Positions 13,270 to 20,348 of a stretch of DNA of 25,394 nucleotides are shown one piece after another. The stretch is from a virus: positions 1-25,394 of IMG/VR virus record IMGVR_UViG_3300030102_002476, one strand, 5' to 3'. The stretch's first letter is position 1. The number at the start of each line of letters is the position of its first letter. The translations under genes and the position numbers were made by a program. The notes beneath the pieces were generated by a model. That model was not told where the DNA came from. It saw nothing but the letters and a program-made list of their open reading frames with translations, and made no database searches.

Positions 13270-14741
13270 CACAACCAAGTCCAGTTGGTCATATTTAACT
13301 TTTTGCGTTCTCTTTCTTCTATCGCTAATTCGCACATCCAAAGGGAGATTACTGTATCTGCAACGTGTCCTTCTAGTTTTCCTTTGCCATCCCACATTAA
13401 TTGAGTCAATCCTTTTACTAAGTCACGAGTTCCTGGCCTAGTATTATCTTTTGCAGTGTCACTAAATGGTATTTCGTATAATCCTTTTTCCATTGCTACA
13501 GCAATCCCAGGAATGCCAATCTGTGCGTGGTTACGTTCATTTCCTGTATGATGTGTAGCTATTGGTAACTTCTCAACATCTCTAGCAGCATGTGCAACAA
13601 GTCTTTGAAATCCATTACTTTCTATCATTATCTTTTCAGGATTGTAGATGCTGGCTATTTTTGATATGTTACTAATCTGTTCGTTTAACCAGCTTGCACC
13701 TTCTCCTTGTATCTTACCACTCCACTGATGTAATACTTTACGCTGCTGAGTTTTAGGATTATAGGCCAAAACACAGTATGCAGTTTCGTCATGTTGTGTG
13801 TCAAAACCTACTGCTAAGTCCACTCCCATGACCGTAACCCACCCTTTTATTGGTCCAGAAAACATTTCAAGACCGTTATTTAGGCATGGTTCGATAACAC
13901 TCCAAGGTATAACTGCACTGTCTGGGTCAATAGGATTTAACATATATTCAGACTCAAACGCCCTTGTTCCCATTGCTAATCTTTCTTCTTCTAATCTATC
14001 TATTGTCCAGTATTCTGGCCAACGTGGAGTTCCATCTTTTTTAAGTGCAGGATTCCAAATACAATTCCAATATGGATTTTCTTTAACGTATGCAGTAATG
14101 TCATCTGGTCTTTTTTGTGTACCTATTAACATAATACGAGCTTTAGGTAAACGCATTGGTAGAACAACACGATTCATAAAGTTGATTATTTTATCATCTT
14201 TTATTCTAGGAAATTCTTCTAGAACGTCATCTAAAATTATAAGGTGAACGTGCGGCCCTTCCATTGCACCAGCCATAACTGCACCTCTTACTCTTGAACC
14301 GTTAGCAAAGCCTTTCTGTGTCATGTTCCATCTAACATCGTTTTTCAATACATTTTCTTTTGATGGAATCAAAGGAGCTACACGCCAGCTTCTTCTACAC
14401 AATTCTTCGAATTGAGTCAACTTATCTACTACCTGAGTAAATGTATTTCCAATGTATAAAGCCCTAAAATTAGGGTTACTATACATCTGCCATAGCAAAT
14501 AAGTCAGGCTAAATGATGTTTTTAAGTGTCCACGAGCGCATATTATTGCTACTCTTTCGTTTTCTGCAATCGTATCATGCCAGTTTTTATGCATGTCAGC
14601 AAGCGGATGAAACTCATCTGGCTCATGTGACATATACTCCATCATGGCTTCATTAGCAAACTCTAAGAATGGAATCTTACCAGGATTTAGATGTTTAGCA
14701 AAAGAAGTAATGAAACTTTTGTGGTCTGTTGCATCAGTCAT
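13269..14741 (-). CDS. terL: Terminase large subunit (packaging ATPase and nuclease)
   Basis: From the ATG at 14741 (MTDATDHKSF) there are 490 residues; a longer frame from 14783 lies inside the TerS gene. The N-terminal ATPase has a Walker A variant ARGHLKTS (69-76), Walker B LIILDD (167-172) followed by VLEE, and the coupling motif LIGTQKR (205-211). The C-terminal RNase H-like nuclease has Asp308 (MGVDLAVG), Glu374 (IMIESNGF) and Asp462 (GHVADTV). It motors DNA into the procapsid and cuts the concatemer. Complete and apparently intact. Overlaps TerS by eight bases. Confidence 0.95.
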   Translation of the reverse strand: MTDATDHKSFITSFAKHLNPGKIPFLEFANEAMMEYMSHEPDEFHPLADMHKNWHDTIAENERVAIICARGHLKTSFSLTYLLWQMYSNPNFRALYIGNTFTQVVDKLTQFEELCRRSWRVAPLIPSKENVLKNDVRWNMTQKGFANGSRVRGAVMAGAMEGPHVHLIILDDVLEEFPRIKDDKIINFMNRVVLPMRLPKARIMLIGTQKRPDDITAYVKENPYWNCIWNPALKKDGTPRWPEYWTIDRLEEERLAMGTRAFESEYMLNPIDPDSAVIPWSVIEPCLNNGLEMFSGPIKGWVTVMGVDLAVGFDTQHDETAYCVLAYNPKTQQRKVLHQWSGKIQGEGASWLNEQISNISKIASIYNPEKIMIESNGFQRLVAHAARDVEKLPIATHHTGNERNHAQIGIPGIAVAMEKGLYEIPFSDTAKDNTRPGTRDLVKGLTQLMWDGKGKLEGHVADTVISLWMCELAIEERERKKLNMTNWTWL

Positions 14742-15240
14742 CGTTTTGTAAATTCCTAACCATATCTGTATAATGTTGAGCAAAAGCTGCTTGTTTCTGT
14801 TTTTCTATACCTGCTTTGTCCATTGCATCAGATACTAATTCAGCAACCTCATCAATCAAAACGTTCCTAGCTTCTACTGCTCCTTCTAATTCTATAAGTT
14901 TAGTTGTCCAAGCATAAGCCTCTGATGGTCTTATGTCCATACCCTCGTTTAATTGAGTAGCAAATAACTCTTGTAATTTAGTTCCTAATTTGATTGCTCT
15001 AGCTATTGAAGTAGTAGCCTTACGTTCTGTAACGTTCCGTACTTCCTTTAGAACTTTCTCTTTTCTTTCATCCCATTTACCTTCTTTAGCCCATGCGTGT
15101 ACGGTTGATTTTGATAGTTTATAATCTTCTCCTGCATACCTTTCATTCATTGTTTTAGCAATGTCACCATAACTCCATGCTTGGCTGTAAAGTACAAAGG
15201 CTTCTTCTTTATCTTGTACTGTATATTTTCTGGTTGTCAT
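14734..15240 (-). CDS. terS: Terminase small subunit
   Basis: The ATG at 15240 (MTTRKYTVQDKEEAF, 168 residues) overlaps the stop of the zinc-ribbon gene before it as ATGA. Residues 5-55 form a helix-turn-helix with a SYGDIAKTMNERYAG helix and the recognition-like SKSTVHAWAKEGKWDERK motif, typical of small terminase subunits that recognise the packaging site. A helical centre and an acidic C-terminal helix (ELVSDAMDKAG) would support oligomerisation and TerL contact. Directly upstream of terL. Confidence 0.88.
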   Translation of the reverse strand: MTTRKYTVQDKEEAFVLYSQAWSYGDIAKTMNERYAGEDYKLSKSTVHAWAKEGKWDERKEKVLKEVRNVTERKATTSIARAIKLGTKLQELFATQLNEGMDIRPSEAYAWTTKLIELEGAVEARNVLIDEVAELVSDAMDKAGIEKQKQAAFAQHYTDMVRNLQNDD

Positions 15241-15368
15241 TTGAATGCAACATCCTCCATACATTGCAAACAATAATGTTTTCCTGAAGATTCATTAACC
15301 CATGAACCTCTTTTACCACATAAATTACAAGTTATAGCTAGCCATATGTGATTGTTAGAATTAGTCAT
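15237..15368 (-). CDS. Mini zinc-ribbon protein (43 aa)
   Basis: Both ends overlap neighbours as ATGA, a strong sign of a real coupled gene. The product has TCNLCGKRG (Cys14, Cys17) and HYCLQCMED (Cys33, Cys36), a minimal zinc ribbon with a Ser/Gly-rich loop between. The first residues (MTNSNNHIWL) are hydrophobic. Immediately before terS; function unknown. Confidence 0.72.
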   Translation of the reverse strand: MTNSNNHIWLAITCNLCGKRGSWVNESSGKHYCLQCMEDVAFK

Positions 15369-15910: not shown

Positions 15911-16177
15911 TTATCTACCTTGTTGAATAGCTCTTCTTTTAATGTTAGATAATTGTGTGTGTATTGTTTTTAGAGCCAACCATACTTTGTTAGCAGTGTC
16001 AATATCGCTTTTTGAACCACCATATCTTTTTAGGTTTTGAATATATTCTCTAACTCCTAATTGTTCTTTAGCGTTAGCATCTAATGCTACTTCCAATTGT
16101 TTAACACTCATTGCATAAGGATTCTTTTGTTTAAACAATTCTTCTCTTTCACTTTTCTCTAATGTGACAAAGCCCAT
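15911..16177 (-). CDS. Small helical protein (88 aa), unknown
   Basis: The ATG is 26.5 nt from the centre of a TATAAATA box and has no clear SD, so a leaderless mRNA is predicted and the start is well supported. The protein is helical and charged: FVTLEKSEREELFKQKNPYA, MSVKQLEVALDANAKEQLGV, a GGSKSDIDTANKVWLALK middle and basic end NIKRRAIQQGR. No family recognised. Lies directly after the inverted-repeat region, so it could be regulated by whatever binds there. Confidence 0.65.
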   Translation of the reverse strand: MGFVTLEKSEREELFKQKNPYAMSVKQLEVALDANAKEQLGVREYIQNLKRYGGSKSDIDTANKVWLALKTIHTQLSNIKRRAIQQGR

Positions 16178-16199
16178 TGTACTTCTTATTATAATCTAT

Positions 16200-16207
16200 T
16201 ATTTATA
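16200..16207 (-). promoter_or_regulatory. TATA-like box (TATAAATA)
   Basis: TATAAATA on the minus strand, centred 26.5 nt before the ATG at 16177, the same distance as the box at 15692. It sits at the edge of the large inverted repeat, whose left arm begins 11 nt further upstream. Confidence 0.55.
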
Positions 16208-16218
16208 CTTTATGTAAG

Positions 16219-16373
16219 ACACACACACCTCCATTTCCACTGGAGATTTTATTGTAAAGTATAAAACAAAATATAATGGAAATCATAATAAGCCGCCGAA
16301 TCTTTTTCTTTTTTTAGAAAAAAAGCGACAGACAGATTAGTCAAAGTTCCAGTGGAAGCAAAGGTGTGTGTGT
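16219..16373. repeat. Large inverted repeat with CA/GT runs and TTCCAsTGGAA palindromes
   Basis: Arms 16219-16244 and 16348-16373 are inverted copies: 22 of 26 positions match. Each arm has a run of five or six AC units, CCT, a 4-nt unmatched block and ttccactgga. In the right arm the last part is a perfect 5-1-5 palindrome (ttccagtggaa). The 103-nt centre is AT-rich with a GC island (gccgccgaatc) and an oligo-T/oligo-A hairpin. No gene fits here. Candidates are an origin of replication, a packaging-initiation site near terS, or a control region; the sequence alone cannot decide. Confidence 0.7.
16308..16325 (-). terminator. Oligo-T tract hairpin, possible archaeal terminator
   Basis: C, seven T, AG, seven A, G: a near-perfect 8-bp hairpin with a two-base loop. 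On the minus strand it gives a run of seven T after the gene ending at 16376, as in archaeal intrinsic termination. It lies between that gene and the next promoter (16200-16207). Confidence 0.4.
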
Positions 16374-16375
16374 GT

Positions 16376-16516
16376 TTAGTTATCTAGTAAACTAGCTAGT
16401 ATTTCTATGTAAGCATTTACTTTACCTTCGTAGTATCCTTTTTCAAAAGATGTTTCTGCTTTTCTAATCAGTAGATTGTTTTCTTCTATTTTATCTGTTA
16501 GGTATTCTTTATTCAT
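16376..16516 (-). CDS. Small helical protein (46 aa), unknown
   Basis: A complete 46-codon frame lies alone between two non-coding stretches. The sequence MNKEYLTDKIEENNLLIRKA continues with ETSFEKGYYEGKVNAYIEIL, two amphipathic helices with strong Glu/Lys content. The codon use (many acidic and Ile/Leu codons) looks like its neighbours. No clear SD. The GKVNAYIEIL-type ending suggests a helical hairpin. Function unknown. Confidence 0.5.
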   Translation of the reverse strand: MNKEYLTDKIEENNLLIRKAETSFEKGYYEGKVNAYIEILASLLDN

Positions 16517-16525
16517 ACTTTTAGG

Positions 16526-16620
16526 GGATAGATGCTTAGACTCACGGTCAGCAAAGATGAGTGATTTTGGAAGCCGTGTATGTTAGAGACAAATCAAACA
16601 AAAGTTGTAAACATCTATCC
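16526..16620. other. Inverted repeat closing a 95-nt non-coding stretch
   Basis: Perfect 9-bp arms (ggatagatg at 16526-16534 and catctatcc at 16612-16620) enclose 77 nt without an open frame. A small internal hairpin gac-tcacg-gtc is also present. It might be a structured RNA or leader. I tested it by eye for tRNA features and found no T-loop or anticodon arm. Confidence 0.4.
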
Positions 16621-16628
16621 TATCCTAG

Positions 16629-19259: not shown

Positions 19260-20348
19260 CTATGATTTTAGTAAGTCTATGTATTCTGCCATACTAAGAG
19301 CTGGTTCTCCTAGAGTTAACAGTGTAGTTATCTCTTCTGAAATTGTAGTTTCGTATCTTACAACAGGTAAAATCTCATCACGTTTTAACGAAGGCATACG
19401 CACTCTAACTAAATCACCTAAAGCAATCCACTCACCATCAGCCATTTCTACTGTGTATGTAATTGTAGGGTCACTAAATCGACGTACTTCATCTAAAGCT
19501 AACTCTTCTAGTTTATCTTTTCGGTCAGTATCAAAAGTAAATACTTTGCCATGAGGTCCGTATTGTTTAATTTTGCTAGCGTCTGAGACAGTGGAAAATA
19601 CTGATTCATCATTGCTGCTTACAAACCTTGCTGAGTTACACATACGAGTTGTATCTATTTGAGCTTGAACTCCTTCACCTACTAAATTCATATGTTCAGG
19701 AGAAAGTGTAATAACTGAACGGTCACGAATGTGAGCATAGTCAGCTAAGTAAAAGTCCATTAAACCACGCTCATGTATTGCATAACGCCAAGGAACATAA
19801 GTCAAAGCTTCGTGATATATGTCATCAAAAGGTTTTACCATATAAGTAAAACATCTATCAATAAAATCTTTACGAGTCATGTGTCCAGTTAATTTGGGTG
19901 CAAGGTCAGAAGTTACCATTAGACCAGAACCTTCTAACAATTGTGAAGTATCAACAGACTTGTAGTTTGCAGCATCTGCTGCTAAGTAATACAAATCATG
20001 ACCAACAACATCTTCTTCTGTGTATCTAACAATTTCAGAATTAGCTAGTTGTGATATAAAATCTACAGCAGTTACCGAACTTACTGAAACCGAAGGTCGG
20101 ACTTGTTGTATAATTCCTTCAAATGTTAAATTATGAGCTTGCCCCCCTCTACCTATTTCTACTCTAACGATACCACCTAATCTACATCGTTCTAATGATT
20201 CTAGCCCTGCTATCGAAAAAGATATAGAACGAGCTTTGTTTGCTTCAGCAGTATATTTTATAGTAAGCCAATCTACAAACTCTCGGCCATCTATTGTAGC
20301 TTCAATTTCTAAATTGTTACCTAATTGGTTATTAAGAATAAGTGGCAT
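19260..20348 (-). CDS. Tail hub / Gp37-like baseplate protein
   Basis: The 362-residue product resembles gp27/gpD-type tail hubs and the Siphovirus Gp37-like tail proteins. It opens with a beta strand region (EATIDGREFVDWLTIKYTAE), then SISFSIAGLESLERCRLGG, VRVEIGRGGQ and a typical FEGIIQQVRPSVSVSSVTAV strand pair. The middle has LLEGSGLMVTSDLAPKLTGH; the end has GEWIALGDLVRVRMPSLK, a usual hub feature. It sits after the distal-tail-like gene and closes the tail module. It should form the ring at the tail tip on which adhesion proteins sit. Confidence 0.75.
   Translation of the reverse strand: MPLILNNQLGNNLEIEATIDGREFVDWLTIKYTAEANKARSISFSIAGLESLERCRLGGIVRVEIGRGGQAHNLTFEGIIQQVRPSVSVSSVTAVDFISQLANSEIVRYTEEDVVGHDLYYLAADAANYKSVDTSQLLEGSGLMVTSDLAPKLTGHMTRKDFIDRCFTYMVKPFDDIYHEALTYVPWRYAIHERGLMDFYLADYAHIRDRSVITLSPEHMNLVGEGVQAQIDTTRMCNSARFVSSNDESVFSTVSDASKIKQYGPHGKVFTFDTDRKDKLEELALDEVRRFSDPTITYTVEMADGEWIALGDLVRVRMPSLKRDEILPVVRYETTISEEITTLLTLGEPALSMAEYIDLLKS

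Follow-up and report, generated by a model that had tools for sequence, protein, structure and literature searches.

The element at positions 16219–16375 of the DNA analysed here (the window, a linear virus record of IMG/VR with 25,394 bases) very probably serves a tailed virus of Marine Group III (MGIII) archaea as its replication origin, at which the Orc1/Cdc6 protein of the host would bind and from which the host would replicate the viral genome. Judged by their sequence, its two arms are outward-facing archaeal origin recognition boxes (ORBs), the predicted sites of the initiator Orc1/Cdc6. The element as a whole apparently shares its design with the host's likely chromosomal origin, and the host machinery could then copy the virus. 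The original prediction for this DNA had proposed an origin or a packaging site; the first half of this proposal is well supported, with arms that are archaeal ORBs and an element that matches a probable host chromosomal origin, whereas the second half is not.

The element sits in a 451-base gap between open reading frames (16178–16628), in a window whose large genes are all encoded on the minus strand. Its parts, together with a neighbouring promoter-like box, are the following:

16200–16207, minus strand: TATA-box-like TATAAATA (box region 16196–16212), read from the sequence
16219–16245, minus strand: core-side (‘right’) ORB, CTCCAGTGGAAATGGAGGTGTGTGTGT, a match to the archaeal ORB consensus with its G-string end facing outward
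16246–16285, no strand: AT-rich stretch from the ORB to the core, a candidate duplex-unwinding element (85% AT, against 64% in the whole window)
16286–16302, minus strand: conserved core, GATTCGGCGGCTTATTA, the ‘GC island’ of the original prediction, near-invariant in virus and host copies
16303–16326, no strand: A-tract/T-tract hairpin (T7/A7) in the variable left half, read from the sequence
16347–16375, plus strand: second (‘left’) ORB, TTCCAGTGGAAGCAAAGGTGTGTGTGTGT, with its G-string facing outward

As originally described, the arms of the inverted repeat (16219–16244 and 16348–16373) match at 22 of 26 positions and are separated by 103 nt; in a repeat search they extend over 34 nt, at 79%. 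The window was also shuffled 40 times with its dinucleotides preserved, and the top 26-nt inverted pairs then had 18–20 matches and never 22. The TTCCAsTGGAA motif, the AC/GT runs, the GC island (GCCGCCG, 16292–16298), the AT-rich part and the A7/T7 hairpin are likewise all present in the sequence. Folded as single-stranded DNA, the element scores far better than its shuffles (z -7.0). The arms, however, do not co-vary: their mean identity at the five variable positions is 2.57, compared with 2.83 after shuffling, and 999 of 1000 shuffles were equal or higher. Given strong folding without co-variation, the pairing of the arms seems to follow incidentally from the inversion of two protein sites, and the missing co-variation is what would be expected for two separate binding sites. 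The promoter that had been placed next to the repeat is weakly borne out: shuffled sequences contain more sigma-70-like sites, although an archaeal TATA-like box is visible. This TATAAATA box lies ~23 bp upstream of the ATG of an 88-aa open reading frame (15911–16177) and would presumably fit a leaderless archaeal promoter, with transcription starting right beside the origin.

The common archaeal ORB, given in the consulted part of the Ori-Finder 2 paper as TCCA[CG]T[TG]GAAA[TC][GA]AAGGGGT (PMC4164010), fits the viral arms except that GGGGT is replaced by GGTGT and a few linker bases differ; the right ORB of the window, CTCCAGTGGAAATGGAGGTGTGTGTGT, departs from it at one linker base and in this same G-string. 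The element thus carries two ORBs of the published consensus, and their GGTGT deviation also occurs in MGIII chromosomes. When one genome per species was scanned with the pattern TCCAGTGGAARYRRAGGKGT (84,980 bacterial and archaeal species), at least 119 stretches matched, with archaeal titles in 78 of the 80 among the matches listed. The 80 listed loci hold 91 sites, 89 of which have the GGGGT end, and two GGTGT sites were found among them, one in the MGIII genome CG-Epi1 (L101) and one in a Verrucomicrobia contig. An earlier genome scan with the full GGTGTGTG end gave no match, whereas the version relaxed to K succeeded.

Conservation in related genomes, which had been suggested as a check, was found: the arms are kept in about 70 contigs in IMG/VR, from a single group of tailed viruses in which the element occurs as one copy per genome. 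Copies were sought with two patterns, one being a single arm and the other the core plus an arm, and the core with the right ORB was located in 69 loci in addition to the window. On the core strand, the left part of the layout reads GACACACACC-TTTR-TTCCACTGGAA, followed by a T-rich or variable stretch; the right part consists of the GRTnCGRCGGSTTATTA core, the AT-rich stretch and TTCCAGTGGAA-ATGA-AGGTGTSTGTC. Across the 37 different pairs of arms, neither CCAGTGGAA nor GGTGT varies, save for a C to G change in two left arms. The position of the core is fixed relative to the right ORB, at 51–56 bp, and its distance from the left ORB ranges from 42 to 138 bp (64 loci entered, with those lacking both arms in the patterns uncounted). 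The AT-rich stretch averages 83% AT across 21 viral copies, and the T7/A7 hairpin of the left half is itself not conserved.

Exact-match scans of 2.9 million IMG/VR contigs, which miss variants, found the strict viral ORB in 71 stretches. Exactly one outward-facing inverted pair was present in 60 of these, and the remaining 11 have one exact site, in the inspected cases because the second ORB is degenerate or the contig ends there. The generic GGGGT-type ORB occurred in two viral stretches, both times as a single site and once apparently inside a reading frame, and among the loci read, exact GGTGT-type ORBs in viral contigs are found only in this element. Ten long contigs (27–36 kb) and the window each contain a single ORB pair and a single core. 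No near match was found in a phage collection, and a distant search returned short, chance-like matches only. Two contigs show variants. One contig has a third ORB-like site (CTCCAGTGGAAGAAGGGGTATG; L057:2004) about 80 bp outside the pair, and a 55-kb viral contig (L031:3942–4232) has an outward ORB-like pair about 250 bp apart, with a shorter linker, a GGTGTGTGTGTCCCC end and no MGIII core; the latter may stem from another archaeal virus, one whose host has an origin of a different type.

The window encodes a terminase large subunit (TerL, phrog_38), a portal (phrog_18178/phrog_12), an SU10-type major capsid protein (MCP) and a LamG-domain protein. Compared with two contigs in which the origin lies elsewhere, its TerL is 48–51% and its MCP 52–62% identical, and these contigs therefore belong to one virus group. 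Within this group, the element occupies three genomic positions, in both orientations. By manual reading, about 38 of 70 copies lie in the head module between HK97-gp10-like and DUF5824-like genes, eight of 70, including that of the window, lie upstream of the terS region, and about 20 of 70 lie, in either orientation, beside a gene for a 350–400-aa protein, in most copies a homologue of window 19260–20348; four of 70 are unassigned.

No initiator gene, the usual companion of such an origin, which we treat as non-defining, adjoins the viral element, and no Cdc6_C domain was detected in any of 36 viral records. In a 33.4-kb contig of the group (L294 and L295), a Pfam search of 26 of the 32 open reading frames of at least 110 aa found no polymerase, primase, helicase, MCM, PCNA or Orc domain; the domains identified were portal, Mu-F, capsid, LamG, DNA methylase, PAPS-reductase and mechanosensitive-channel. 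The 26 do not include four scanned reading frames that belong to L290. In this relative, TerL is flanked by an N6/N4 DNA methylase and a protein with a PAPS-reductase domain (L295:1791–5036). The cumulative skew that had been proposed as a further check did not mark the element in the virus and tracks the coding strand: GC, AT and MK disparities show no turning point there (window, and ten relatives for GC skew). Viral skew gives the origin no support. A missing turning point would presumably not exclude it either, since the coding strand dominates the skew and late rounds of replication may yield concatemers.

A counterpart of the element is chromosomal. In CG-Epi1, an intergenic site has an ORB, the core CAATTCGACGGATTATT, a T-rich stretch and a second ORB, that is, the viral plan. 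Among the 21 species genomes of its order, seven have a close orthologue (at least 60% identity) of the neighbouring MBL-fold gene, and in all seven the ORB–core–ORB arrangement lies upstream of this gene, at a syntenic intergenic site. The core-to-ORB spacing is 51 bp in six of these genomes and 55 bp in one, compared with 51–56 bp in the virus. The viral element thus shares the GGTGT-ended ORB, the core CGRCGG.TTATT and the 51–56 bp spacing of an MGIII-type origin.

The lineage specificity of this arrangement was assessed in the 339 genomes of the class. The GGTGT-type pattern CCANNGGAANNRRNGGTGTNTG matched eight sites in six genomes, all in the MGIII order and all at the origin locus, whereas its reversed control matched once. 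A sequence-only model, R1, was built from seven host copies and 21 viral ones, whose own scores therefore follow by construction. It reached E ≤ 3e-12 only in the seven MGIII genomes used in its training. Weaker matches in three more genomes of the order comprise a clear core (G058), a divergent core (G060) and ORBs without a core (G057). At E ≤ 0.01, the model matched in 162 of the 339 genomes, where most listed matches start past the core and cover the AT stretch and ORB, and it had no match at this threshold in 11 of the 21 genomes of the order. Two loci outside the MGIII order (L269 and L288) have CCCGTTG..TATG.TCGCGAG.AGTTAAT beside their ORBs, possibly a different core type; with only two of 23 loci showing it, we do not claim that a GC core is general to the other origins of the class.

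In three host contig stretches, AT disparity turns within 1.6 kb of the locus, and GC disparity peaks elsewhere in two of them. The AT disparity minimum lies +0.1 (G056), -1.6 (G051) and -0.1 kb (G036) from it, the MK minimum +0.3, -1.6 and +5.7 kb, and the GC disparity maximum +4.1, -1.6 and +6.8 kb, respectively, the last at a contig edge. In CG-Epi1, the cdc6 match lies on a different contig from the locus. From synteny, ORBs and AT disparity, the MGIII locus is probably a chromosomal origin.

Several other readings of the element have to be weighed against a host-type origin. A packaging (pac or cos) site recognised by TerS near its own gene, the second half of the original prediction, would suit the eight copies of the window's clade, where the element lies ~1 kb upstream of a terS-like gene. 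In the window this distance is confirmed (~0.95 kb to the open reading frame 14734–15273), while the identity of the gene depends on a sub-threshold Terminase_5 match. In most relatives, however, the element is far from terS, between two head-module genes or beside the gene for the 350–400-aa protein, and its orientation to the genes can flip; contigs continue across it and end elsewhere, so that a fixed place at terS or the genome ends is not seen, and its arms are those of a chromosomal ORB present at the MGIII locus. We therefore regard packaging as very unlikely indeed. A structured RNA or DNA hairpin, such as an attenuator or a cruciform, has the folding score in its favour, and yet there are no Rfam matches in the window, the arms lack co-variation and the orientation relative to the adjoining genes flips; we give it next to no credence.

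Terminal inverted repeats and the three positions and two orientations among related genomes could also point to a miniature inverted-repeat mobile element carried by the viruses. Against this stand the single copy in each long contig and in the window and the one syntenic site in seven of seven MGIII genomes, and no target-site duplication was seen in the flanks inspected, a non-systematic survey; such an element is extremely improbable. Finally, the ORB pair might be a decoy, itself no origin, which titrates Orc1/Cdc6 and so shuts down host replication. Its ORB specificity is that of the host and no other replication genes were seen in the 33-kb contig, but titration should call for many ORBs, with core, set spacing and AT-rich stretch all dispensable, and here one pair per genome comes with a kept core spacing and an AT-rich stretch. 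We consider this very unlikely.

A replication origin of host type is thus our preferred reading. In established archaeal biology, ORBs are the binding sites of Orc1/Cdc6, which brings MCM to an AT-rich region, as set out in the consulted sections of PMC4010727. By analogy, MGIII Orc1/Cdc6 would bind the two outward-facing ORBs of the virus, the AT-rich stretch between them would melt, and the host MCM helicase would be loaded; the origin would then fire and the host replisome copy the viral genome. The GC core, as part of the host origin code, probably positions a second factor or the point of melting or loading. With no recognisable viral initiator and a shared ORB variant, core and spacing, recruitment of the host Orc1 and replisome is the economical reading; which of host and virus captured the origin from the other is likewise inferred.

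The assignment to this host would follow from the origin, together with distant relatives of the head genes that occur elsewhere in the class: since a provirus search by TerL matched none of the 21 MGIII genomes, the host link rests on the origin. The same search matched five of the 339 class genomes, one of which (G371) has a TerL relative at E 4.8e-54. On its 106-kb contig, distant relatives of TerL, portal and MCP show 25–31% identity (G371:C2:91581–92837; L310, L318); they may belong to a provirus, or to a larger archaeal virus that was binned with the genome. The part of it that was read holds no viral-type ORB pair.

Compared with the probable MGIII chromosomal origin (L230–L236), the virus has the same ORB–core–ORB order, GGTGT end, core CGRCGG.TTATT and spacing (51–55 bp in the host). 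In the host, however, the other ORB is close to the core, whereas the viral half is expanded to 42–138 bp, and the AT stretch is T-rich on one strand, whereas that of the virus is mixed. Extra conserved motifs inside archaeal origins may have a precedent in the uncharacterised motifs (UCM) of the Sulfolobus and Aeropyrum origins, which we offer as a lead. Other archaeal chromosomal origins (Sulfolobus oriC1, Pyrococcus oriC and haloarchaeal oriC1), as far as the consulted sections of PMC4010727 describe them, likewise have ORBs that flank an AT-rich unwinding region, with the G-string at the ORB end and Orc1/Cdc6 as initiator. Unlike them, the present element lies on a virus, has only two ORBs in ~157 bp, carries GGTGTGTG in place of GGGGT and a fixed GC core, and has no adjacent orc1/cdc6.

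ORBs have also been predicted in an archaeal virus genome, that of the pleolipovirus HHPV4; this is a different virus type with a haloarchaeal host, its ORBs lie near the RY-disparity minimum, and the consulted text does not describe a host-matched core (PMC5867852). Thermococcales viruses resemble the present group in lacking Orc1/Cdc6, but according to the available portion of PMC12934983 they have no classical ORBs and many encode their own MCM. The magroviruses of Marine Group II carry PolB (PMC5628999, as far as its consulted part goes), whereas no replication enzyme was found in the 33-kb contig described here.

Taken together, the sequences point to known parts in a new variant and setting, an archaeal-type viral origin that matches MGIII chromosomes and whose lineage-specific core appears, as far as the searched literature shows, not to have been described before. 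To our knowledge, Marine Group III is an archaeal lineage without cultures. No paper naming MGIII viruses was found in the literature searched (listings and the starts of abstracts), and if our reading is true, a marine tailed-virus family would be linked to these archaea and a chromosomal origin with an undescribed core motif proposed for their lineage. We lean towards a picture in which viruses of ~35 kb carry a complete host-type origin, including the lineage-specific core, are copied wholly by host Orc1 and MCM, and shift this origin from site to site in their genomes as an independent module, whose ORB and core signature reveals the host. Mimicry of the host origin would then be a replication strategy without viral initiators, and the GGTGT-type ORB, confined to MGIII in the 339 class genomes, would offer a cis-element test for assigning viruses to their hosts.
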